Assembly: GCF_006716645.1 (NCBI RefSeq)
Contig: NZ_VFPL01000001.1
Span: 4,588,001-4,652,000, forward strand
Source of the DNA: Arcticibacter tournemirensis
GTDB taxonomy: Bacteria; Bacteroidota; Bacteroidia; Sphingobacteriales; Sphingobacteriaceae
Direction: 5' to 3'
Length of the DNA: 64,000 bases
The position numbers were made by a program, and so were the translations under genes. A model generated the notes under the pieces. That model searched no databases. It saw only the letters and a program-made list of their open reading frames with translations, and was not told the DNA's origin. Shown here piece after piece: positions 4,858 to 13,871 of this stretch. Position 1 is the stretch's first letter. Each line of letters begins with the position of its first letter.

Positions 4858-5310
4858 TTATTTTGAAAATATAAGCCTCGTAATGAATATACCGGCTCCG
4901 TCTTCTTTTCCTCCATCGCTTTCTACTCCGCTGGTGACAAAGGAAAGCTTCCATCCATCTTTAGCTAACTCATTCATTTTCGACGTAATGATTGCGTCAT
5001 TAGACGCAATGTTCTGGAAATTAATCCCTGCGACACTGAAGAAATTAAGGAGCTTTGTTTCTGCAAAAGAGTCTATTTTGGCATCGCCTCTTTTTACATC
5101 ACCTTGTTTGCTGTCTTTTCCGTCGGTGCGCTCGGTTGTGAAATCAGCAGCATTCACCTCTGTTTTCGTTTCAATAAGCCTCGACCGGCCCAGCCCTCCT
5201 GGTACAATTGATTCGACAATAGTAACTACCTTAAATTGTGGCACCGCCTGCTGCGCAAACGAGCTTAGGCTGAGCGCTATTAAACTGAGTGTTAAATATA
5301 GATTCTTCAT
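4858..5310 (-). CDS. Secreted hypothetical protein
   Basis: 150 residues from the ATG at 5310. This start is preferred over the upstream one because it gives a clean signal peptide (MKNLYLTLSLIALSLSSFAQ) and is preceded by GGGAG. The mature part is about 130 residues and mixed, with a charged middle (KDSKQGDVKRGDAK) and a C-terminal half that looks like a compact domain (MNELAKDGWKLSFVTSGV). The phrase 'MNELAKDGWKL' resembles the DUF4177-like pattern of 'LN..G..GWEL', so a small DUF4177-type fold is possible but unproven. It lies 59 bases downstream of the repeat protein on the same strand. Confidence 0.6.
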   Translation of the reverse strand: MKNLYLTLSLIALSLSSFAQQAVPQFKVVTIVESIVPGGLGRSRLIETKTEVNAADFTTERTDGKDSKQGDVKRGDAKIDSFAETKLLNFFSVAGINFQNIASNDAIITSKMNELAKDGWKLSFVTSGVESDGGKEDGAGIFITRLIFSK

Positions 5311-5369: not shown

Positions 5370-6476
5370 TCAAAATCCGATCTGCAAACCCGCGGTATAC
5401 CCGATGAATAACTGACGTTTGTCGTCTCCTGAATAATCATTCCAGAAATCATTTTCGATCAGTTTCTTCCCGTCGTCAGTATCGGTTGAAGAAAAGTTAA
5501 GAGAAGGACCGCCAAAGAGTTCTATGCGGGGTGTAAGACGGATGGAGGGAAGAACGCGGAAGGTGTTTTTATAGTAGAATCCTTTCTTCCAGTCTTCGAG
5601 ATATAAACTAGTTAACTCTGCATTTATTCTGAAAGAATTCGATAATGGAAGATGCGCACCAAAGCCTCCTTCAAACGCCATGTATGATGTGCTGGTCTTC
5701 CAGTTACCGCCAACACCGATAATGCCATACAGCACCCTGCCTCCCGACCGGAACGAAAGAACGGTTGTTTGTGTCTCATCTATAGTAACTCCGATGCTCT
5801 TCTCGCCATTTTTTATAATATTAACAAGGGCAAGCGAGTGGTCGCTGCTATCGGCGATATTTATAAAGCCGGCAAACTGTAATCCCCGTACCTTTTTAGC
5901 AACATTAACAAAGCCGGCAAACTGAAAGCCTTCCACATCCCTAACCTTATTAACAAAGCCGGCAAACTGGAAACCTTTAAAGTTGCCGCCATCAATATTG
6001 CTGAATCCGGCGAACTGGAAGCCATCTATGTCATTGCGGACGATGTTGCTGAGACCAGCGAACTGAAAGCCTTTGACGGTAGCAGACCGGTTAAGCAGGC
6101 CCGCAAACTGAAAGCCGTCAATTGTATCGACATCATTGTAAATGCCTGCGTACTGAAAGCCCTTCATTGCATTCTTCACATGATTTGAGATTCCTGCAAA
6201 CTGAAAACCTGAAACCTTATCCCTTACTACGTTTGAGATTCCCGCGTAACTGAAAGCCTTCTCCTCCTTTGAAAGGCCGGCAAGGACATGAAAAGAAGCA
6301 TTATTTGTATACTCGCCCGCCCGCGATCCATTCGTGCTGAGAGGATAGCAAAACCCTATATGAACATTACTTACAGGCTCCTGTGCTTTGGCAATATGGG
6401 CGTTAGAAAAAATAAAAAGGCAGACCATCATAAAAACTGATGCTGCCTTTGAAATGTTTTTAAAAGTTAAATTCAT
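5370..6476 (-). CDS. Outer-membrane protein with GFQFAG surface repeats (LA_2272-like)
   Basis: 368 residues. A signal peptide (about 1-31, ending AKAQ) is followed by eight or nine tandem repeats of 15-16 residues with core GFQFAGxxN (about residues 80-210), then a C-terminal part of amphipathic strands ending in GYTAGLQIGF, typical of an outer-membrane barrel. The repeat type matches what is called the LA_2272 surface-repeat family, whose role is unknown. It is paralogous to the protein at 9.8-11.7 kb in both repeats and C-terminus (ELTSLYL... GGPSLNF against ELVGLYL... AGPSVNV). A promoter shared with two other units of this region lies just upstream. Confidence 0.82.
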   Translation of the reverse strand: MNLTFKNISKAASVFMMVCLFIFSNAHIAKAQEPVSNVHIGFCYPLSTNGSRAGEYTNNASFHVLAGLSKEEKAFSYAGISNVVRDKVSGFQFAGISNHVKNAMKGFQYAGIYNDVDTIDGFQFAGLLNRSATVKGFQFAGLSNIVRNDIDGFQFAGFSNIDGGNFKGFQFAGFVNKVRDVEGFQFAGFVNVAKKVRGLQFAGFINIADSSDHSLALVNIIKNGEKSIGVTIDETQTTVLSFRSGGRVLYGIIGVGGNWKTSTSYMAFEGGFGAHLPLSNSFRINAELTSLYLEDWKKGFYYKNTFRVLPSIRLTPRIELFGGPSLNFSSTDTDDGKKLIENDFWNDYSGDDKRQLFIGYTAGLQIGF

Positions 6477-6498: not shown

Positions 6499-6528
6499 AA
6501 TACAACCTCCTGAATTCTTACCCCTATG
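6499..6528 (-). promoter_or_regulatory. Candidate ECF-sigma promoter, copy 3
   Basis: Reading the minus strand: CATAGGGGTAAG, ten bases, GTTGTATT. The same two blocks with the same spacing occur before the TonB receptor (9762-9791) and the sigma gene (13297-13326). The TTGTAT block ends 23 bases before the ATG, exactly as for the receptor gene. The sequence directly after it also holds an inverted repeat of GTTGTATT/AATACAAC. Confidence 0.6.
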
Positions 6529-6539
6529 TCCGGTGTTAT

Positions 6540-7376
6540 TTATTCTATCTTTTTTTCTACAGTGCCAACCAGTGAAATACCAAAATATCCGATGACATCC
6601 TTAGAGTTTTCGGTCAGCTTCTTCACATTAGTCCGGGTATTCGTAAGGGGTGAAGCAAAGATGCCACCATTTCTCAACTGGGTTTGCAGGTCGGCCCAGA
6701 AATAATAGGCATTTTCCGTCAGCGACCATACCTCTGCTCTTATAGTATCGCCCGCAGCAAATGCGCTGTCAATTTCAAGTCCCATATCTATATAATTGCC
6801 ATCTACAAATTTATCGGGGAAAATATTGATGTCATCTACGCTGTTAAGGTATCTGTTGTTCTTGAAAAGCTTCACCTGGATAAAATCGTCTTCACCAGGC
6901 AATTCCTGGCCGTGGATGTATGGATAATAACCTTCCTGCTCATAAATGATCGATTTCTCTTCATATTTAAAGGTGAGAGAATCGGGAGCCATAGAAAGAC
7001 GCGGCATTTTCGAAACGGCTTCATAACTGCCTTCGGCGGTCTGGATACGGAGAGTATAGGTTCGTGCCTCTACTCCTCTTATCGCCGATATTTCGTATTT
7101 CCCTGCACTTACTTCCTTAAGCTGTTCAGTATGCCCGGCATCGTCGCTCAATGTGAGTGTTGCATTTCTTACCGGTTCAAAATCATTAGAACCACCAAGA
7201 GGTTTCGTTATGTACAACTTCACGTAGTGATTTTCAGGGCGGTCGGTTAACCAGCCCTCTACCACAAGAGCAGGTTTACCTTCTTTAACATCAATATCTA
7301 TAGGATCTTCGCATGCCGAAAACAAAAGAACGGGAGCAAGAAGAATCAGTATTAATTTCAATATTTTCATGATCAT
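6540..7376 (-). CDS. DUF4249 outer-membrane lipoprotein
   Basis: 278 residues. It has a lipoprotein signal with lipobox FSAC (Cys22), followed directly by EDPIDIDV, the usual beginning of the DUF4249 family. The rest is beta-rich with no enzyme motif. DUF4249 genes normally sit right behind a CarboxypepD_reg-like TonB receptor, and here the start codon overlaps the receptor stop codon in TAATG, so translation is likely coupled. The presumed role is an accessory surface subunit of the receptor; the ligand is unknown. Confidence 0.88.
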   Translation of the reverse strand: MIMKILKLILILLAPVLLFSACEDPIDIDVKEGKPALVVEGWLTDRPENHYVKLYITKPLGGSNDFEPVRNATLTLSDDAGHTEQLKEVSAGKYEISAIRGVEARTYTLRIQTAEGSYEAVSKMPRLSMAPDSLTFKYEEKSIIYEQEGYYPYIHGQELPGEDDFIQVKLFKNNRYLNSVDDINIFPDKFVDGNYIDMGLEIDSAFAAGDTIRAEVWSLTENAYYFWADLQTQLRNGGIFASPLTNTRTNVKKLTENSKDVIGYFGISLVGTVEKKIE

Positions 7377-9739
7377 TAAAATTTAAAGTTCCAGGTAACA
7401 GACGGGATAATTGAACCAAACATTGAAAAGCGGATCGTCTCCAGTTCCGACATGCTGTCTTCGTTCTGACGGAGATACAGGGAAAATGCATTCCGCCGGT
7501 TTAATGCGTTAAACATAGAAACGACCCACTCGCTCGTGTACTTTCGTCCGGGAACGGGTTTCTTTTTAAAGGTAGCCGACAGGTCGAGGCGATGATAAGA
7601 GGGAATGCGGTAGTTATTGCGAAAGTTTCCTGAATTATACTGTACCGGAAAACTGTCAAACTCGAAACGACCGTCGGGTAAAGTGGCCGGTATTCCGGAA
7701 GCGAAATTGTATGTACCCGATAATATAATTCGTGGCTTTAGTTCATATACAGCAACTACGGCGAGAGAATGAGTTTTATCGTATTTAGCCGGATAGTACT
7801 CATTATTGTTGATGCCATCTATTTTCCGTTCCGTACGGCTAAGCGTATAACTTACCCAGCCATTCAGCCGTCCGCTGTTCTTTTTAATATAAAATTCCGA
7901 TCCGTAAGCTCTTCCATCACCAAACAACATATCACCTGGTAAATCCTCGTTAAGCAGGGTTTCGGCACCATTAATAAAGTCCATTTGATTGTGTAGTTTA
8001 CGATAGTATACCTCGGCGGACGCTTCATACTTATTGTTACTGAAATTTCTAAAGTAGCCAGCTGAAACCTGATCAGCAGTTTCAGGCTTCACATTATAGG
8101 AACTCGGCGTCCAGATATCAAGAGGACTGGACGAAATGGTGTTTGACACCAGATGCAGGTTTTGAGCTGTACGGCTTAAAGAAGCCTTTACAGAAGCATT
8201 CTCACCAGTCTTTACTTTAAATGAGAGTCTTGGCTGCAGGTTATGATACCACTTTATGCTTTGCCAGTCGCTGAATGTCCTGGTATTCACCGGCTCCTTA
8301 CGTTCACCTGTAACACCCTCGTAATCGCTTATTTTAGTCTCTCCTTTTGCCAGGCTCTGGAACGCAGAATACCTCAGGCCATACTCGGCCGAAAACACAT
8401 CGGAGAGCGTTATTTCATGATCCCAGTACAGGTTATAGTCGGCAGCACGCTGACCAGGCATTTCCGTGAAGTTAAAGATAGAGCTCTCACTCGCCGGCTT
8501 GGCTGTGCCCGGCATAAAGTCATGAAGTCCTGCTTCTATACCAAAGTAAATGGTATTGCGGGCATCGGGGTACCAGCTATAGGCGTTCTTCAGGCTGTAA
8601 TCAACAATTGACGCATCCCAGGTAAAGCTCGTAGCGGGATCCTGATAGGCACCTAAACGATACTTATAATCAGAGTAGATCACACTCGTATTCGAAAATA
8701 AGCGGGGATTGAAAATATGGTTCCACCTTATGGTTCCCGTTCCATTTCCCCATTGCAGCAAAAACATTTTTGCTGCATCGATATGGTCTTTACCAAAATA
8801 GCCTGAAATGAACAGTCGATCCTTGTCAGACAACGTAAAATTCAGTTTGGCACTCAGATCATAGAAGTAGATGGAATTGTCTTTGATATCAGGGTCGGAC
8901 GACTGTTTAGTAAGGATATCCGTGTACGAACGCCTGGCACTGATGATCATGGAGCTTTTATCTTTTTTTATGGGACCTTCGGCGGTAAACCGGCTTGCTA
9001 TAAGTCCTAGTCCCCCTGCAAAGTTCCACTCCTTATTATTGCCATCCTTCATACGGGTATCCAGTACCGACGATAAGCGCCCTCCAAACCTTGCAGGCAT
9101 TTCCGTTTTATAGAGCGCTGCATCCTTTACCGCATCCGGATTAGCCACAGAAAACAGGTTAAAAAGGTGGGATGTAAAATAAAGCGGAGCTTCATCCAGT
9201 AAAACAAGGTTCTGATCTACGCCTCCCCCTCTTACGTTAAAGCCTGAGGCGCCATCTCCAACAGTACTAACTCCCGGCAGAAGCTGAAAAGACCGGATGA
9301 GGTCTGCTTCGCCAAGAAACGCGGGCAGCTGCTTTACTTCGACCATAGACAAAGGAGCTATGTTCACTGGTTTATTTACATTATCCTTTTTTGATACCGT
9401 ACTCACCACTACCTCGTTCATCATGTTCGAAGCGGGGTTAAGATTTACATTAACTGCCGTATCTCTCCTGAGAACCAGGGAGTGTTCTTCGCGCTGATAG
9501 CCAACATAGGAATAATTCACCTTATAGCTGCCGGAATTCAGCGACAAAGAATAAAAACCATAACTATTTGCTGATGCCTTGATAGCGGTACCCTGAACCG
9601 TTACAAGCGCTCCTGCAAGGCTTTCGCCGCTTACAGCATCTTTAAGATAGCCGCTAATGGTAACTTTCTTCTGAGCGTAGGCTGTTGTCTGCATTGCAGT
9701 AAACAGCAATGCCATGAAAAACAGTTTAATAAATTTCAT
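7376..9739 (-). CDS. TonB-dependent receptor with carboxypeptidase-regulatory-like domain
   Basis: 787 residues. Signal peptide about 1-22, a CarboxypepD_reg-like beta-sandwich about 25-113 (KVTISGYLKDAVSGESLAGA), a plug domain about 125-235 (including VRGGGVDQNLVLLDEAP) and a C-terminal 22-strand barrel. It would import an unidentified substrate across the outer membrane using TonB energy. It has no STN signalling domain of its own. An STN domain is found instead in the separate protein upstream at 9.8-11.7 kb. Partner lipoprotein DUF4249 follows with overlapping codons. It is not a SusC type (length and partner differ). Own promoter of the shared ECF-like type. Confidence 0.93.
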   Translation of the reverse strand: MKFIKLFFMALLFTAMQTTAYAQKKVTISGYLKDAVSGESLAGALVTVQGTAIKASANSYGFYSLSLNSGSYKVNYSYVGYQREEHSLVLRRDTAVNVNLNPASNMMNEVVVSTVSKKDNVNKPVNIAPLSMVEVKQLPAFLGEADLIRSFQLLPGVSTVGDGASGFNVRGGGVDQNLVLLDEAPLYFTSHLFNLFSVANPDAVKDAALYKTEMPARFGGRLSSVLDTRMKDGNNKEWNFAGGLGLIASRFTAEGPIKKDKSSMIISARRSYTDILTKQSSDPDIKDNSIYFYDLSAKLNFTLSDKDRLFISGYFGKDHIDAAKMFLLQWGNGTGTIRWNHIFNPRLFSNTSVIYSDYKYRLGAYQDPATSFTWDASIVDYSLKNAYSWYPDARNTIYFGIEAGLHDFMPGTAKPASESSIFNFTEMPGQRAADYNLYWDHEITLSDVFSAEYGLRYSAFQSLAKGETKISDYEGVTGERKEPVNTRTFSDWQSIKWYHNLQPRLSFKVKTGENASVKASLSRTAQNLHLVSNTISSSPLDIWTPSSYNVKPETADQVSAGYFRNFSNNKYEASAEVYYRKLHNQMDFINGAETLLNEDLPGDMLFGDGRAYGSEFYIKKNSGRLNGWVSYTLSRTERKIDGINNNEYYPAKYDKTHSLAVVAVYELKPRIILSGTYNFASGIPATLPDGRFEFDSFPVQYNSGNFRNNYRIPSYHRLDLSATFKKKPVPGRKYTSEWVVSMFNALNRRNAFSLYLRQNEDSMSELETIRFSMFGSIIPSVTWNFKF

Positions 9740-9761
9740 ACTTTGTGGAATTGTTTTATAT

Positions 9762-9791
9762 AATACAATAAACTCAGCGCTTACCCCTATG
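9762..9791 (-). promoter_or_regulatory. Candidate ECF-sigma promoter, copy 2
   Basis: Minus strand: CATAGGGGTAAG, ten bases, ATTGTATT. The TTGTAT block ends 23 bases before the receptor ATG. The downstream block is part of a near-perfect 20-base palindrome (ATTGTATTATATAAAACAAT). Confidence 0.62.
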
Positions 9792-9829
9792 GCAATTGTG
9801 AAATATTGTTAGTGTGTGCTCTTTTGACA

Positions 9830-11665
9830 TTATTTTGTAAACGGTGTTACACTAATCCCCGCACTCCAGCCTATCCAGTGATATAATTTGTCGTTTTTTG
9901 AACTACGAGACATTTTTATTCTTTCAGTTATCAATGAATATCCGTCAACCTTTTTATCCTGATCGGAATAGAGAACATTTACAGAGGGTCCTGCAAAAAC
10001 GGAAAGAAGCTTATGTACCTTGCAGGTAAGGTTCATATTAAACCTTGTAATGGTATTTGTATAATCCCAGCTGCCCTGGTAAAGATATAAGCCGACCAGT
10101 TCGGGGCTCAAAAACAATCTATTGGATAACTGGTACTGTTTTCCAAAACCCCATCCTCCCATATTACGTGCTCCGTGTATAATTGTGTAGAACTTAGGAG
10201 TGCCGGTTTTAATTAACAGATTCCAGGTAAACATCTCATTTGAACTAACCGATACAGAATGGAGTCCATTTTTACGAACAATGTTAATCAGTCCGACACT
10301 TGCGCCTGAAGATGTATCCGCAACATTAAGGAGGCCAAACTGGAAGCCTTTCTGGTGCCGTGCAAAATTAACGACGCCTATCTGTGCTCCCCGCATATCG
10401 CCACCTGCAATATTGAGGGTTCCGGATACCTGCATTCCCGCCATATTCTGTCCCGCCGCATTCATTAATCCTGCCACCTGAAGCCCCGCCGTATGATTAC
10501 CTGAAATATTCATAAGTCCCGCAGCTTGAATTCCTTTTACCGAACCAAGATCAAAGTTCAGGAGACCGCCCGCCTGTACACCGGAAAACTCGCCTCTTAC
10601 AAAATTCACAATGCCGCCCGCCTGAACCCCTGCGAAGTCCTTGATTACAAAATTCGCTATTCCACCTGCCTGAACTCCCTGAACCGAATCTAAGACACCG
10701 TTATAAATCCCCGCAGCCTGTACTCCCACTACCGACATTCCCACGAGATTGAAGATTCCAGCCGCCTGTACCCCCTTTGCATACTTCTTATTTATATTAA
10801 ACAAGCCGCCCGCTTCCACTCCTTCAACACCTGCGGTATAACCCCCGAAGATATTAATTGAAAATTTGTTGATCACCTGTCCGCTTAACATACCATGAGA
10901 GCTTAGTCCGGGCGTGATGGAAGCCTGAACGGGGCTTTCGGCAATAAAGCCGGGAACGTTCAGCTCCTGGATCTTTTGTTTGTATGAAACCAGCAAACGC
11001 CCTATCGCTGTTCTTTCAGCGACGGAGGCGCCCTCTCCGGAAGCATGATCCGGATCGTCACGGGTACTGCCATCAGAGTTTACATCTACTGATGAAAGGA
11101 TCAGCACAGTGGTGTCACGATAAAGCTCCTTACTTACAGTTAGGGCTATAGAGTGATTCCGCGTGTTGATTTTCATCTCAAAAGAACCATCAGCCTCTGT
11201 CAGGGCAGACCGCAGCAGCTTTTTTTCGTAAACACTGGCTTTCGCTATCTTTTCGCCGGTACGATCATCTATGACAAAACCGCTGATTCGATAAACGCCC
11301 CTGTTGCTTTCAACCTTATCTGTGATTAATGACAATCTTAAAGGAGCATAACGCAGAATGATAAAGCCGGCCGCTTCCTTATATTCAAAACGACCAGCGA
11401 ACAACATGTCGAGGATGTCTTTTATAGTCTGATTGCTGACTGAAAGGCTAATGAGGCTATCCCGGGGAACGATGCTGCTGTTATATGAAAAGCTAAATCC
11501 GCACTTCTGACCTATCCGGTCGAGCACATTTTCCAATGGCAGATGATGTGCCTCAACCGAAATTTTCCGGTAAAGCAGTCCCTGTGCATTCAATTGCTTT
11601 TGGGGAAATAAAAGAACTGTCAGTAATAAGAGAAGGGTTATCACTAACCCTTTATTTTGGAACAT
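9830..11665 (-). CDS. STN-domain surface-repeat protein, candidate signal transducer
   Basis: 611 residues from the ATG at 11665; this start gives a normal signal peptide ending LNAQG. Domains in order: STN (secretin/TonB short N-terminal) about 30-100 (ENVLDRIGQKCGFSFSYNSS, LDMLFAGRFEYKE); carboxypeptidase-regulatory-like about 125-190 (RISGFVIDDRTGEKIAKASV); a linker; ten or so 16-residue repeats of the type GVQAGGIxNF, about 280-450; and a C-terminal strand-rich part. STN domains of FecA-type transducers contact FecR-type anti-sigma factors. The gene lies 10 bases downstream of fecR in the sigma operon. I know of no described STN fused to such repeats. The role as sensor is inference. Confidence 0.78.
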   Translation of the reverse strand: MFQNKGLVITLLLLLTVLLFPQKQLNAQGLLYRKISVEAHHLPLENVLDRIGQKCGFSFSYNSSIVPRDSLISLSVSNQTIKDILDMLFAGRFEYKEAAGFIILRYAPLRLSLITDKVESNRGVYRISGFVIDDRTGEKIAKASVYEKKLLRSALTEADGSFEMKINTRNHSIALTVSKELYRDTTVLILSSVDVNSDGSTRDDPDHASGEGASVAERTAIGRLLVSYKQKIQELNVPGFIAESPVQASITPGLSSHGMLSGQVINKFSINIFGGYTAGVEGVEAGGLFNINKKYAKGVQAAGIFNLVGMSVVGVQAAGIYNGVLDSVQGVQAGGIANFVIKDFAGVQAGGIVNFVRGEFSGVQAGGLLNFDLGSVKGIQAAGLMNISGNHTAGLQVAGLMNAAGQNMAGMQVSGTLNIAGGDMRGAQIGVVNFARHQKGFQFGLLNVADTSSGASVGLINIVRKNGLHSVSVSSNEMFTWNLLIKTGTPKFYTIIHGARNMGGWGFGKQYQLSNRLFLSPELVGLYLYQGSWDYTNTITRFNMNLTCKVHKLLSVFAGPSVNVLYSDQDKKVDGYSLITERIKMSRSSKNDKLYHWIGWSAGISVTPFTK

Positions 11666-11675
11666 AAATATATTT

Positions 11676-12650
11676 CTATTTAAGGGTGATCCTCCGCCCC
11701 TCACGCTCTACCTCTGCATTAAATGTGACACTAAGTACTGTAAGAATATCTTCGAGACTTTTATTGTTAAGCGTAGTACTAATTTTCGAGCCTTCAAGTT
11801 CTTTATTAGCAATAAAAATCTCAACATTATAAGCATCACTCACTGCTGCTGTTAATTCGGGCAGAGGCGTATTGTGACAAATGAATTCCCTGTTCGAATA
11901 GGAATGATACAATGTACTTGTATTAATCCCCTTTGAGAGAACTCCGTTTTTGCCGGTTGTAGCTTTCTCGCCTGCTTTTAACTCTACCCGGTCGTTATTT
12001 TTAAAGACCCTGACAATTCCCGATTCTACAATCACTTCAGTTTTTTGATGACGGCTTTTTATATTAAAAGACGTTCCGACTACGGTAACTGTTACATCGT
12101 TGATCTTAATAATAAATGGATGGCTTTTATCGCCCGCAACTTTAAAAAAGGCTTCGCCCTCCATGGATACATTCCTTGTCTTCCCTGTAAAACGGGAGGG
12201 ATAAGACAGACGGCTGTTCCGGTTCAGCGTAATAACAGACCCGTCCGGAAGGGTATCCGATAGCGTCGAGTCATGGCTTTGCAGCCGAACCATTCTGACA
12301 ATCCTTGAATTTAAATAAACAGAAACAGCTATTCCTCCTGCAGTGGCAATGAGAACCAGTACAGCCGCGATGCGGACCCAGTAGCTCAGAGAGCGAATCC
12401 GTGCAGGCGGTGCCTGCTTTAAGATCACTTTATTTCTAAACCGGTCCCAGGCTGCGTTCTCATCCGCACTGCCTTTCAGCGCTACTGTCTCGCTCTCCTC
12501 CCATATCATCCGGAAATGATTAAAATAACGCTCATTGTCAGAATGCTCACTAATCCACTGCAAAACCGTGCTCTTCTCTGCCTCACTTGCCTCATCTGCA
12601 AGGTACTTTACCAGCAGGTCGTCGTTCATATCAAAACTTTTATCTTTCAC
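11676..12650 (-). CDS. FecR-family anti-sigma factor
   Basis: 324 residues, or 317 if the inner ATG at 12629 is used. The cytoplasmic N-terminus (about 1-80; LVKYLADEASEAEKSTVLQW) would hold the sigma factor, one membrane helix lies at about 90-110, then come the periplasmic FecR domain (about 125-225; DGSVITLNRNSRLSYP, EGEAFFKV) and a C-terminal DUF4974 domain (about 250-320) that resembles STN. It would keep the neighbouring ECF sigma inactive until a periplasmic signal arrives. It lies between sigma gene (15-base gap) and STN repeat gene (10-base gap), so the three are one operon. Confidence 0.92.
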   Translation of the reverse strand: MKDKSFDMNDDLLVKYLADEASEAEKSTVLQWISEHSDNERYFNHFRMIWEESETVALKGSADENAAWDRFRNKVILKQAPPARIRSLSYWVRIAAVLVLIATAGGIAVSVYLNSRIVRMVRLQSHDSTLSDTLPDGSVITLNRNSRLSYPSRFTGKTRNVSMEGEAFFKVAGDKSHPFIIKINDVTVTVVGTSFNIKSRHQKTEVIVESGIVRVFKNNDRVELKAGEKATTGKNGVLSKGINTSTLYHSYSNREFICHNTPLPELTAAVSDAYNVEIFIANKELEGSKISTTLNNKSLEDILTVLSVTFNAEVEREGRRITLK

Positions 12651-12665
12651 TTGTCGTTCCCCCCT

Positions 12666-13238
12666 CTAAAAATTCAGTAATAAAAGTAACAGTACCGGAA
12701 GAAATTCCACCAGCTTCAACCTCAACAACTTCAGGGCCTTGCCCATCTGGTTTTCGACTGTCTTAATCGAAATGCCAAGATGGTCGGCTATCTGCTGGTA
12801 TTTTAACTGTTCAAACCTGCTAAGCTGAAAAATGATCCTGCATTGAGTGGGAAGCTCAGAAAGCGCTTTAGCTATTTGCTTCTCAAGTTCAGAAACGAGT
12901 GCATTCTTTTCACTGTGGTCATATTCACCTTTCATACGCTGCGTATAATATTGCTCATATTCTGCTTTAACTTTATGATGTTTTAAATAGTTGAGACTTT
13001 CATTGTGTACGGCACGATATAAATAGGATTTAAGAGTGCCGTTTACGTCAAGCAGGTCTTTCTTCTCCCATATCCTGCAAAAAACATTCTGAACGATTTC
13101 TTCTGCCGCTACTTCATCTTTAAGGAAAGTAAAGGCATAGGCGTGCAGCCGTTTATAATACTCTTTAAAAACCTGTTCGAATGCACTTTCATTACCCTCT
13201 TTGAGTAACTCTATAACCGTACTGCTGGTAATTTCCAC
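12666..13238 (-). CDS. ECF RNA polymerase sigma factor (FecI-like, Bacteroidota family)
   Basis: 190 residues from the GTG at 13238. The longer open frame to an ATG at 13358 would begin upstream of the candidate promoter at 13297-13326, so the inner start fits better and gives the normal family length. Region 2 spans about 20-90 (FEQVFKEYYKRLHAYAFTFL, AEEIVQNVFCRIWEKKD), and region 4 about 125-180 with the helix-turn-helix YQQIADHLGISIKTVENQM. It would recruit RNA polymerase to surface-nutrient genes when released by the FecR protein encoded next. The hydrophobic tail PVLLLLLLNF is unusual for a soluble protein but occurs in this family. Confidence 0.88.
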   Translation of the reverse strand: MEITSSTVIELLKEGNESAFEQVFKEYYKRLHAYAFTFLKDEVAAEEIVQNVFCRIWEKKDLLDVNGTLKSYLYRAVHNESLNYLKHHKVKAEYEQYYTQRMKGEYDHSEKNALVSELEKQIAKALSELPTQCRIIFQLSRFEQLKYQQIADHLGISIKTVENQMGKALKLLRLKLVEFLPVLLLLLLNF

Positions 13239-13296
13239 GCTTATAATATCCAAATCTGCCGTAAATATATGCTTTAACAATTGTCTGTTTAATACT

Positions 13297-13326
13297 GATA
13301 CAACTGTTTGCCGGATTACCCCTATG
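13297..13326 (-). promoter_or_regulatory. Candidate ECF-sigma promoter, copy 1 (autoregulation)
   Basis: Minus strand: CATAGGGGTAAT, ten bases, GTTGTATC. It has the same geometry as the copies before the TonB receptor and the GFQFAG protein. Its position upstream of the sigma gene suggests that the sigma factor drives its own operon. Confidence 0.58.
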
Positions 13327-13418
13327 CAGATATTAAATAATTCGTAATATTTACTCAAAAAAAAAGACCGCCTTTTCCAGCGATCCTTTTATGAGTAAAT
13401 ACGAAGGGCAGACCAGTT

Positions 13419-13871
13419 CTATAACTGATATTTGAACTTTCTCCCCTCTTTTTCTCCTCTGATTCTATTGGCTTTATGAAGAGCCGATAACTTGACCATA
13501 ACGGCCTTACTAAGTTTATCTGCATCTTTCTCGGGCTCGAGCTCCTTAAGGCGCTCTATAATTTCGGTGTTGAATAACGCACCATTCTTTGATAAGATAA
13601 AGGCAATTTTACTGTCTAGTTTCCCGTTTGAATCAAATTCTTCAGGAACGTCCAAGGGTTTTACAACTTCTTTTTTGGGAGCTGGTTTACGACCTCTTCT
13701 GCTTTTTACTGGTTCTGGGCTCTCAACTACCGCTGGTTTATTTGCAGTAACCGGAGTTGCTTTACCGCTGAAAGCATCTAATGCTGCCTGAGTTTTCTTT
13801 AACTCGGCAGTAAGGGTTGATATCTTATCCCTAAGAAAAGTAATTACATCTTGTTCGGTTACTTTTGCCAT
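13419..13871 (-). CDS. Hypothetical protein with coiled coil and basic AT-hook-like stretch
   Basis: 150 residues. Residues 5-35 form a likely coiled coil (VITFLRDKISTLTAELKKTQ). A Pro/Lys-rich linker follows with SRRGRKPAPKKE, an AT-hook-like GRKP core. The C-terminal half (about 80-150; NTEIIERLKELEP, KAVMVKLSALHKANRI) looks like a small helical or winged-helix domain. This would suit a DNA-associated protein, but this is inference. A TATTTTTG element at 13939-13946 on the minus strand may be its promoter. I do not recognise a named family. Confidence 0.62.
   Translation of the reverse strand: MAKVTEQDVITFLRDKISTLTAELKKTQAALDAFSGKATPVTANKPAVVESPEPVKSRRGRKPAPKKEVVKPLDVPEEFDSNGKLDSKIAFILSKNGALFNTEIIERLKELEPEKDADKLSKAVMVKLSALHKANRIRGEKEGRKFKYQL

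Follow-up and report, generated by a model that had tools for sequence, protein, structure and literature searches.

Can a FecR-type anti-sigma factor be governed by an outer-membrane barrel that is independent of TonB, and does the phylum Bacteroidota monitor its outer membrane through such barrels? These questions are raised by a locus of Arcticibacter tournemirensis, which was analysed here in a stretch of 64,000 nucleotides (contig NZ_VFPL01000001.1, positions 4,588,001 to 4,652,000; hereafter the window, whose own coordinates are used throughout). To our knowledge, Bacteroidota genomes carry dozens of ECF sigma factor genes, few of which have a known promoter. For one sigma family, sequence alone yields a sharp candidate promoter, a list of predicted targets and a putative sensor of unexpected make-up. 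An earlier sequence-only reading of the window had noticed the same bipartite motif before three of its genes and proposed an ECF-sigma regulon.

Gene organization of the locus

The genes described first all lie on the minus strand. The ECF sigma factor gene (12666 to 13238, GTG start, 190 amino acids) scores 177 bits against TIGR02985, the FecI-like sigma family of Bacteroidota (cut-off 126.4), and has Sigma70_r2 and r4_2 domains. Its start by homology is the GTG at 13238, 60 bases after the -10 box described below; a longer frame (12666 to 13358), which overlaps the motif, was rejected as the sigma gene because homology places the start at 13238. The next gene (11676 to 12650) encodes a FecR-type anti-sigma factor matching PF04773 and PF16344, both over cut-off, and the third (9830 to 11665) encodes a protein of 611 amino acids, the proposed outer-membrane signal transducer, composed of an STN domain, a CarboxypepD_reg domain, a low-confidence linker and an LA_2272-repeat beta region. 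We refer to this protein and its orthologs as STN-barrels. The TonB receptor gene follows (7376 to 9739), with CarboxypepD_reg and Plug domains in Pfam. Pfam finds no STN domain in this receptor, which looks like an output of the system and not its sensor. The start of a DUF4249 gene (6540 to 7376; PF14054, 96.5 bits) overlaps the stop of the receptor gene. The last of the main genes (5370 to 6476) encodes an STN-less GFQFAG-repeat protein of 368 amino acids, modelled as all beta, which has no Pfam or NCBIfam match of its own and is 37–74% identical to LA-type genes of relatives (tblastn, most loci).

A small gene (4858 to 5304, minus strand) lies after the 368-amino-acid gene, possibly in one unit with it; it matches no Pfam or NCBIfam family and has an 83% identical relative at the same place in a related locus, L041. 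Before the sigma operon there is a gene of 150 amino acids (13419 to 13871), likewise with no Pfam or NCBIfam match, and L041 has a relative of it (73% identity) some 1 kb upstream of its sigma gene. Elsewhere in the window, a fluoride riboswitch (RF01734; 72 to 136) is located just before the gene of a 464-amino-acid membrane protein (191 to 1585), which we take to resemble a ClC-type channel.

A bipartite motif precedes three transcription units

The pattern CATAGGGGTAAK-N10-RTTGTATY has three matches in the window, all on the minus strand, and none in 100 dinucleotide-preserving shuffles. The copies at 13297 to 13326, 9762 to 9791 and 6499 to 6528 are the proposed promoters of the sigma/FecR/STN-barrel operon, the TonB receptor/DUF4249 unit and the STN-less LA_2272-type barrel gene, respectively, and each is conserved in relatives. 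The three sites, the ten-base gap and the lack of a fourth full copy in the window had been read by eye, and the pattern search recovered all of them. The distance from TTGTAT to ATG is, as also claimed before, 23 bases for both the TonB-receptor gene and the GFQFAG gene. The gap of 11 bases between GGGGTAA and TTGTAT, which the sequence-only reading gave for a genome-wide search, was an error; it is 12. With this gap, the core GGGGTAA-N12-TTGTAT matched only the three window places in the whole genome (5,655,817 bases, two contigs, completeness 100), and the reversed control gave no match.

Allowing one mismatch in the core added 10 further sites, and up to two mismatches gave 162 sites against 151 for the reversed control, so that no wider regulon is shown by the core pattern in this genome. 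Two extra weaker sites (L142 and L143) are both inside open frames. A wider regulon was rejected on these two grounds, and for the same reasons three promoters are proposed here. The form supported by the comparison is a predicted ECF-type bipartite promoter with a -35 box TAGGGGTA, 13 bases and a -10 box TTGTAT. A G-rich -35 box and a GT-containing -10 box agree with ECF promoters of other phyla.

The gene set and its footprint are conserved in relatives

When the 611-amino-acid protein was searched in 100 related genomes, 65 matched at E up to 0.001, many of them through the STN domain only. Of the thirty stretches fetched, 29 surround STN-barrel genes from 28 genomes, with one paralog each from the window's own genome (G000) and from G001 among them; the last is a further contig of G004 and carries an STN-less gene. 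In all 29 of the former, the STN-barrel gene is immediately preceded by the sigma and FecR genes. Seventeen of the 30 stretches have a gene labelled as a separate STN-less gene; in L064 another such gene, the eighteenth, matched the STN-barrel query better. The collection of named genomes gave one relative, a metagenome-assembled Sphingobacteriales bacterium, and the window's own genome was perhaps outside that search.

The upstream sequences of most fetched loci contain a common box pair, conserved as TA[A/G]GGG(TA)-N13-nTGT[C/A] with fixed spacing. The pattern TA[AG]GGG-N15-N[TC]GT[ACT] was then counted in 31 stretches (the 30 fetched and the window), from 30 bases inside to 160 bases before the start of a sigma, STN-less barrel or TonB-receptor gene. 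Forty sites of this one spacing were found before such genes in 27 of the 31 stretches and in 25 of the 28 genomes with a fetched system, at 11–132 bases from the gene starts. The third motif base was G in 35 sites and A in 5, and the variable -10 base was C in 28, A in 11 and T in 1. Four stretches had no site before the three gene types (L052, L057, L065 and L067). In L052 and L057 the motif stands before a DUF6134 gene, and in L057 the sigma gene follows this gene immediately; in L067 a TAAGGGTA form is close to the sigma gene and was masked in the count by the chosen gene start; in L065 no footprint site of any form was found.

The spacing itself was scanned from 8 to 19 bases with the window's own boxes (up to three mismatches of 14) in 29 stretches, the window and L040 being excluded. 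The peak was at 13, where 34 of 89 sites lay upstream; other spacings gave 0 to 20 upstream sites, and 200 shuffled motifs tested at spacing 13 had on average 1.2 upstream sites and never more than 8. The 20 upstream sites at spacing 16 may be an echo of the spacing-13 sites, with a T-rich stretch after the -10 box.

The -10 base was compared with a sigma tree. Five loci with A at the sigma, barrel or receptor genes form one group with weak support (82/69). G003, of the window's own genus, has C, and its sigma groups with another genus. G011 has A at the sigma gene and C at the barrel and receptor genes, L052 has A (before the DUF6134 gene) and a sigma outside the A group, and L057 (A) is absent from the tree. 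Six alignment positions separate the A and C sigma groups, none of which could be linked to promoter recognition. In view of the mixed G011 and of the L052 sigma, the -10 base was rejected as proof of recognition by the sigma factor of the locus.

A second type of box was found before the sigma genes. The housekeeping consensus is TAnnTTTG in the accessible part of PMC9723704, and it was searched as TA, two or three bases and TTTG. Among 29 sigma genes, 14 have such a box in the 80 bases before them, where shuffles predict 2.75; the 14 include those of L043, L044, L046, L050 and L056, and the window's own sigma gene is not one of them. Of 18 STN-less barrel genes, none has the box before it (1.67 expected). 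This arrangement would mean a basal supply of sigma factor with sigma-dependent output.

The window's own genome has a second sigma/FecR/STN-barrel set (L067; G000:C1:1571500-1589500, sigma gene at 6512-7078), with a TAAGGGTA-N13-TTTGTC-type site near the sigma gene and an STN-barrel gene that matches in two frames. This genome has 54 matches to the TIGR02985 sigma family, 24 of them over cut-off. A relaxed motif was checked before the 30 of these 54 that had been assigned loci, and it was present before four: the sigma gene of the window, that of the paralogous L079 (the same gene as in L067), and those of L087 and L100, where the sites are weak TTGTT variants.

Distribution of the motif follows the system

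In the 100 relatives, TAGGGGTR-N13-TTGTM gave 66 sites against 68 for the reversed control (summed by hand), so the number of sites alone proves nothing; it is their placement that carries the argument. By hand count, 29 of the 66 are in fetched loci or the window and 37 elsewhere.

A wider search with TAGGGGTA-N13-TTGTC covered 201 genomes of the family, 140 of which had not been used before. It gave 60 sites, of which the 140 new genomes contain 39; the reversed control, summed by hand, gave 46. STN-barrel genes were found in at least 50 of these held-out genomes (profile, E up to 1e-50). The motif was present in 24 of the 50 with an STN-barrel gene and in 4 of the 90 without (Fisher p 1.5e-9, a value that overstates independence because the genomes are related); 26 of the 50 had no exact match. 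At least 18 of the 39 sites were within 8 kb of an STN-barrel gene, a neighbourhood that makes up about 0.17% of the sequence. The proposal of an ECF-sigma regulon made by the sequence-only reading gains support, as far as sequence comparison can give it, from a motif unique to the locus in its own genome and from the same boxes and spacing before the same genes in relatives; the concentration of held-out sites in genomes with the system, near its genes, points further in this direction.

Candidate targets outside the sigma locus

The 37 dispersed sites fall into several classes. Fourteen are clear of any long frame, with the start of an open frame no more than 40 bases away, and two more have such a start at 161 and 166 bases; 7 are inside a frame, 9 are antisense to one and 5 have nothing near. 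Of the 14 gene products, two each are TonB receptors (identity to the window's receptor 68% and 43%), STN-less barrels and DUF2807 proteins. A DUF6134 protein, a lipid A acyltransferase, an FtsX-type permease and an AraC regulator occur once each, and the remaining four products have no Pfam match. The frame at 166 bases encodes a third TonB receptor (48%). Genomes with a fetched system account for twelve of the 14 sites. The remaining two belong to G046 and G058; in G058 a sigma relative (43%) lies within 9 kb of the dispersed site. Within the fetched loci, further motif sites precede genes for DUF6134 proteins (two genomes), lipid A acyltransferases (two genomes), an OMP_b-brl_2 protein and an NAD-dependent epimerase. 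Together with the dispersed site, this makes three genomes in which a lipid A acyltransferase gene (PF03279) follows the motif, at 154 bases (L061:7034-7933), 38 bases (L063:10119-11012) and 25 bases (L134:2127-2978), which may be a hint of a role in the envelope.

Of 21 distant sites in the held-out genomes, 20 were fetched. Eight are free of long frames and lie at most 50 bases from a gene start, one lies 130 bases from a gene start, 7 overlap a frame and 4 have nothing near. Four of the eight genes are copies of one small OMP_b-brl_2 gene in one genus (tested in two of the four), and the others encode a TonB receptor, a PepSY_like protein, an AhpC/TSA protein and a FecR; the site at 130 bases also precedes a FecR gene. 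The four copies of the small outer-membrane barrel gene (L204, L205, L206 and L207), each in a different genome, are away from the sigma locus and have near-identical sites before them. The two FecR genes are those of L219 and L221, where the motif lies 24 and 130 bases before them, respectively, and the genome of L221 (G141) has no STN-barrel match among the matches listed.

The best relative of the window's TonB receptor was inspected in the 30 top genomes. Where the system is present, 7 of 13 of these relatives have the motif before them, against 0 of 17 where it is absent, which agrees with the earlier expectation that the motif would be met before TonB-receptor genes. Four of the seven positives are in the sigma locus itself, one being the window, and the other three (G011, G035 and G012) lie apart from the sigma/FecR/STN-barrel cluster.

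The STN domain is on a putative non-TonB barrel

The sequence-only reading had overlooked that the predicted STN domain is on a non-TonB barrel rather than on the TonB receptor. The 611-amino-acid protein begins with a hydrophobic helix resembling a signal peptide, followed by the STN domain (about residues 34–106; 20.7 bits, below the Pfam cut-off of 28.4) and CarboxypepD_reg (28.5 bits, below the cut-off of 32.2). In its structural model (pTM 0.50), some 70 residues with pLDDT below 50 lead into a long beta region, and the protein scores 46.6 bits against the LA_2272 repeat (NF047436), over the curated cut-off of 25. Among 22 aligned STN-barrel orthologs, STN was detected in 20 (E up to 0.01) and CarbopepD_reg_2 in all 22, and Plug or TonB-barrel models matched none. 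The SusC model matched five of the 22 weakly (best E 5e-4), probably via common N-terminal domains. NF047436 matches 17 of the 22 STN-barrels at E up to 0.01, and only 6 of 18 STN-less proteins, the window's 368-amino-acid protein not among them.

The model of the 368-amino-acid protein is nearly all beta (mean pLDDT 86.6, pTM 0.64). Foldseek found no match at E under 0.001 with either model, and "barrel" is therefore used here as a reading of fold class and not as a statement of homology. For the 368-amino-acid model, natural or designed outer-membrane barrels make up nearly all of the best 50 matches listed. The STN end of the 611-amino-acid model resembles the N0 domain of PilQ (4ar0; 82 columns, rmsd 3.6, E 0.022). 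In a profile search against solved structures, only the CarboxypepD_reg part of SusC homologs matched below 0.001. A C-terminal phenylalanine is usual in outer-membrane barrels; it was found in 14 of 22 STN-barrels, and the window's own STN-barrel ends in lysine.

This domain make-up and the constant place of the gene suggest that the third gene of the sigma operon likely encodes the signal transducer, a role that is moderately supported. The sensor could instead be another protein, the TonB receptor of the locus or a receptor elsewhere, with the promoter read correctly and the STN-barrel merely one of its targets. In several genomes the receptor gene, too, has the motif before it, and in Fec-type systems it is the receptor that senses; against this, the window's receptor is without an STN domain in Pfam and the constant neighbour of FecR is the STN-barrel and not the receptor. 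We regard this alternative as rather unlikely.

Proposed mechanism

We propose that the sigma factor encoded at 12666 to 13238 uses the motif as its promoter and that the STN-barrel is the outer-membrane transducer to FecR, and we hold this explanation as a whole with high confidence. An inner-membrane FecR, as its family suggests, would hold the sigma factor. Docked on the periplasmic part of FecR, the STN domain of the LA_2272 barrel in the outer membrane would relay to it the condition of this barrel or of the outer membrane. A change in the barrel or its surroundings would alter the stability of FecR; a stability change of this type is described for FoxA and FoxR in the available portion of PMC11637429. 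The sigma factor would then drive its own operon (sigma, FecR and STN-barrel), the TonB receptor/DUF4249 unit and the LA_2272-type barrel gene, so that, once freed, it would transcribe its own operon and outer-membrane genes and more barrels and receptors would be made.

The promoter and the regulon are the well-supported part of this prediction. In principle, one other regulator could track the same genes, with the motif serving as the site of a separate activator or repressor, or as an element of a leader RNA. However, the motif consists of two unlike boxes, by eye not inverted repeats, with a spacing fixed to the base and at 11–132 bases before gene starts; the sigma genes themselves are among its targets, its presence tracks the sigma/FecR/STN-barrel genes across genomes, and no Rfam family was found at the motif sites. 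A separate regulator or a leader RNA is accordingly very improbable. The three copies all lie within 7 kb, as a recent local duplication without function would leave them, but their spacers differ from one another and the same boxes with other spacers recur in other genera, by which this origin is effectively excluded.

The recurring barrels, DUF2807 and DUF6134 proteins and lipid A acyltransferase among the candidate targets suggest to us outer-membrane upkeep more than uptake of a single nutrient. A possible function, put forward tentatively, is envelope homeostasis: a non-transporter barrel would sense the outer membrane (barrel assembly or the state of lipid A) and signal via STN and FecR to an ECF sigma factor, which would renew barrels and TonB receptors and, in some genera, also lipid A acylation. 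Such a system would correspond to Dma divided over two proteins and would be functionally analogous to sigma-E of Proteobacteria.

Comparison with known systems

We regard the predicted promoter family as real and specific. ECF-type promoters of Flavobacterium psychrophilum (SM6, with a CGT box at -10; PMC9723704) also have a GT-containing -10 box, unlike the housekeeping TAnnTTTG; the accessible text of that source mentions no GGGG-type -35 box, and its targets are type IX secretion genes. In the present case the two boxes, with fixed spacing, stand before the sigma gene and the targets. A GGGGTAA-type ECF promoter in Bacteroidota was not found among the literature matches listed, nor was an STN domain on an LA_2272 barrel (the matches include PMC12596196, as far as its text is accessible); these matches are mostly from non-subscription sources and are weak evidence of absence.

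In FecI/FecR/FecA signalling (Fec, Fox and Pup, as described in the accessible parts of PMC9249621 and PMC11637429), an ECF sigma factor, a FecR-type anti-sigma factor and an STN-type outer-membrane protein are adjacent, as they are here: the sigma factor belongs to TIGR02985, the FecR gene (PF04773 and PF16344) is adjacent in all 29 stretches, and an STN partner is seen in 20 of 22 orthologs, the window's own protein being below the cut-off. The transducer of Fec-type systems is a TonB-dependent receptor, whereas here the STN domain is on an LA_2272-repeat barrel without Plug, and Plug/TonB-barrel models match 0 of the 22 orthologs. The locus is not a strict FecI/FecR/FecA member because its putative transducer is not a TonB receptor, although by analogy it should work like Fec-type systems. 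The LA_2272 repeat (NF047436), which the 611-amino-acid protein has in common with that family, occurs here in one chain with STN and CarboxypepD_reg domains, in a protein whose gene adjoins that of FecR. The Dma/Das systems of Bacteroides (ECF21; PMC13088901, available in part), likewise of Bacteroidota, also link a non-TonB outer-membrane barrel on a long tether to an ECF sigma factor. As that source describes in its available part, Dma has an anti-sigma domain, helix, tether and barrel in one chain, whereas here FecR and STN-LA_2272 are two proteins from separate genes (11676 to 12650 and 9830 to 11665). We read the locus as FecI/FecR cell-surface signalling with an exchanged outer-membrane part, between the FecA systems and the Dma anti-sigma factors of Bacteroides.
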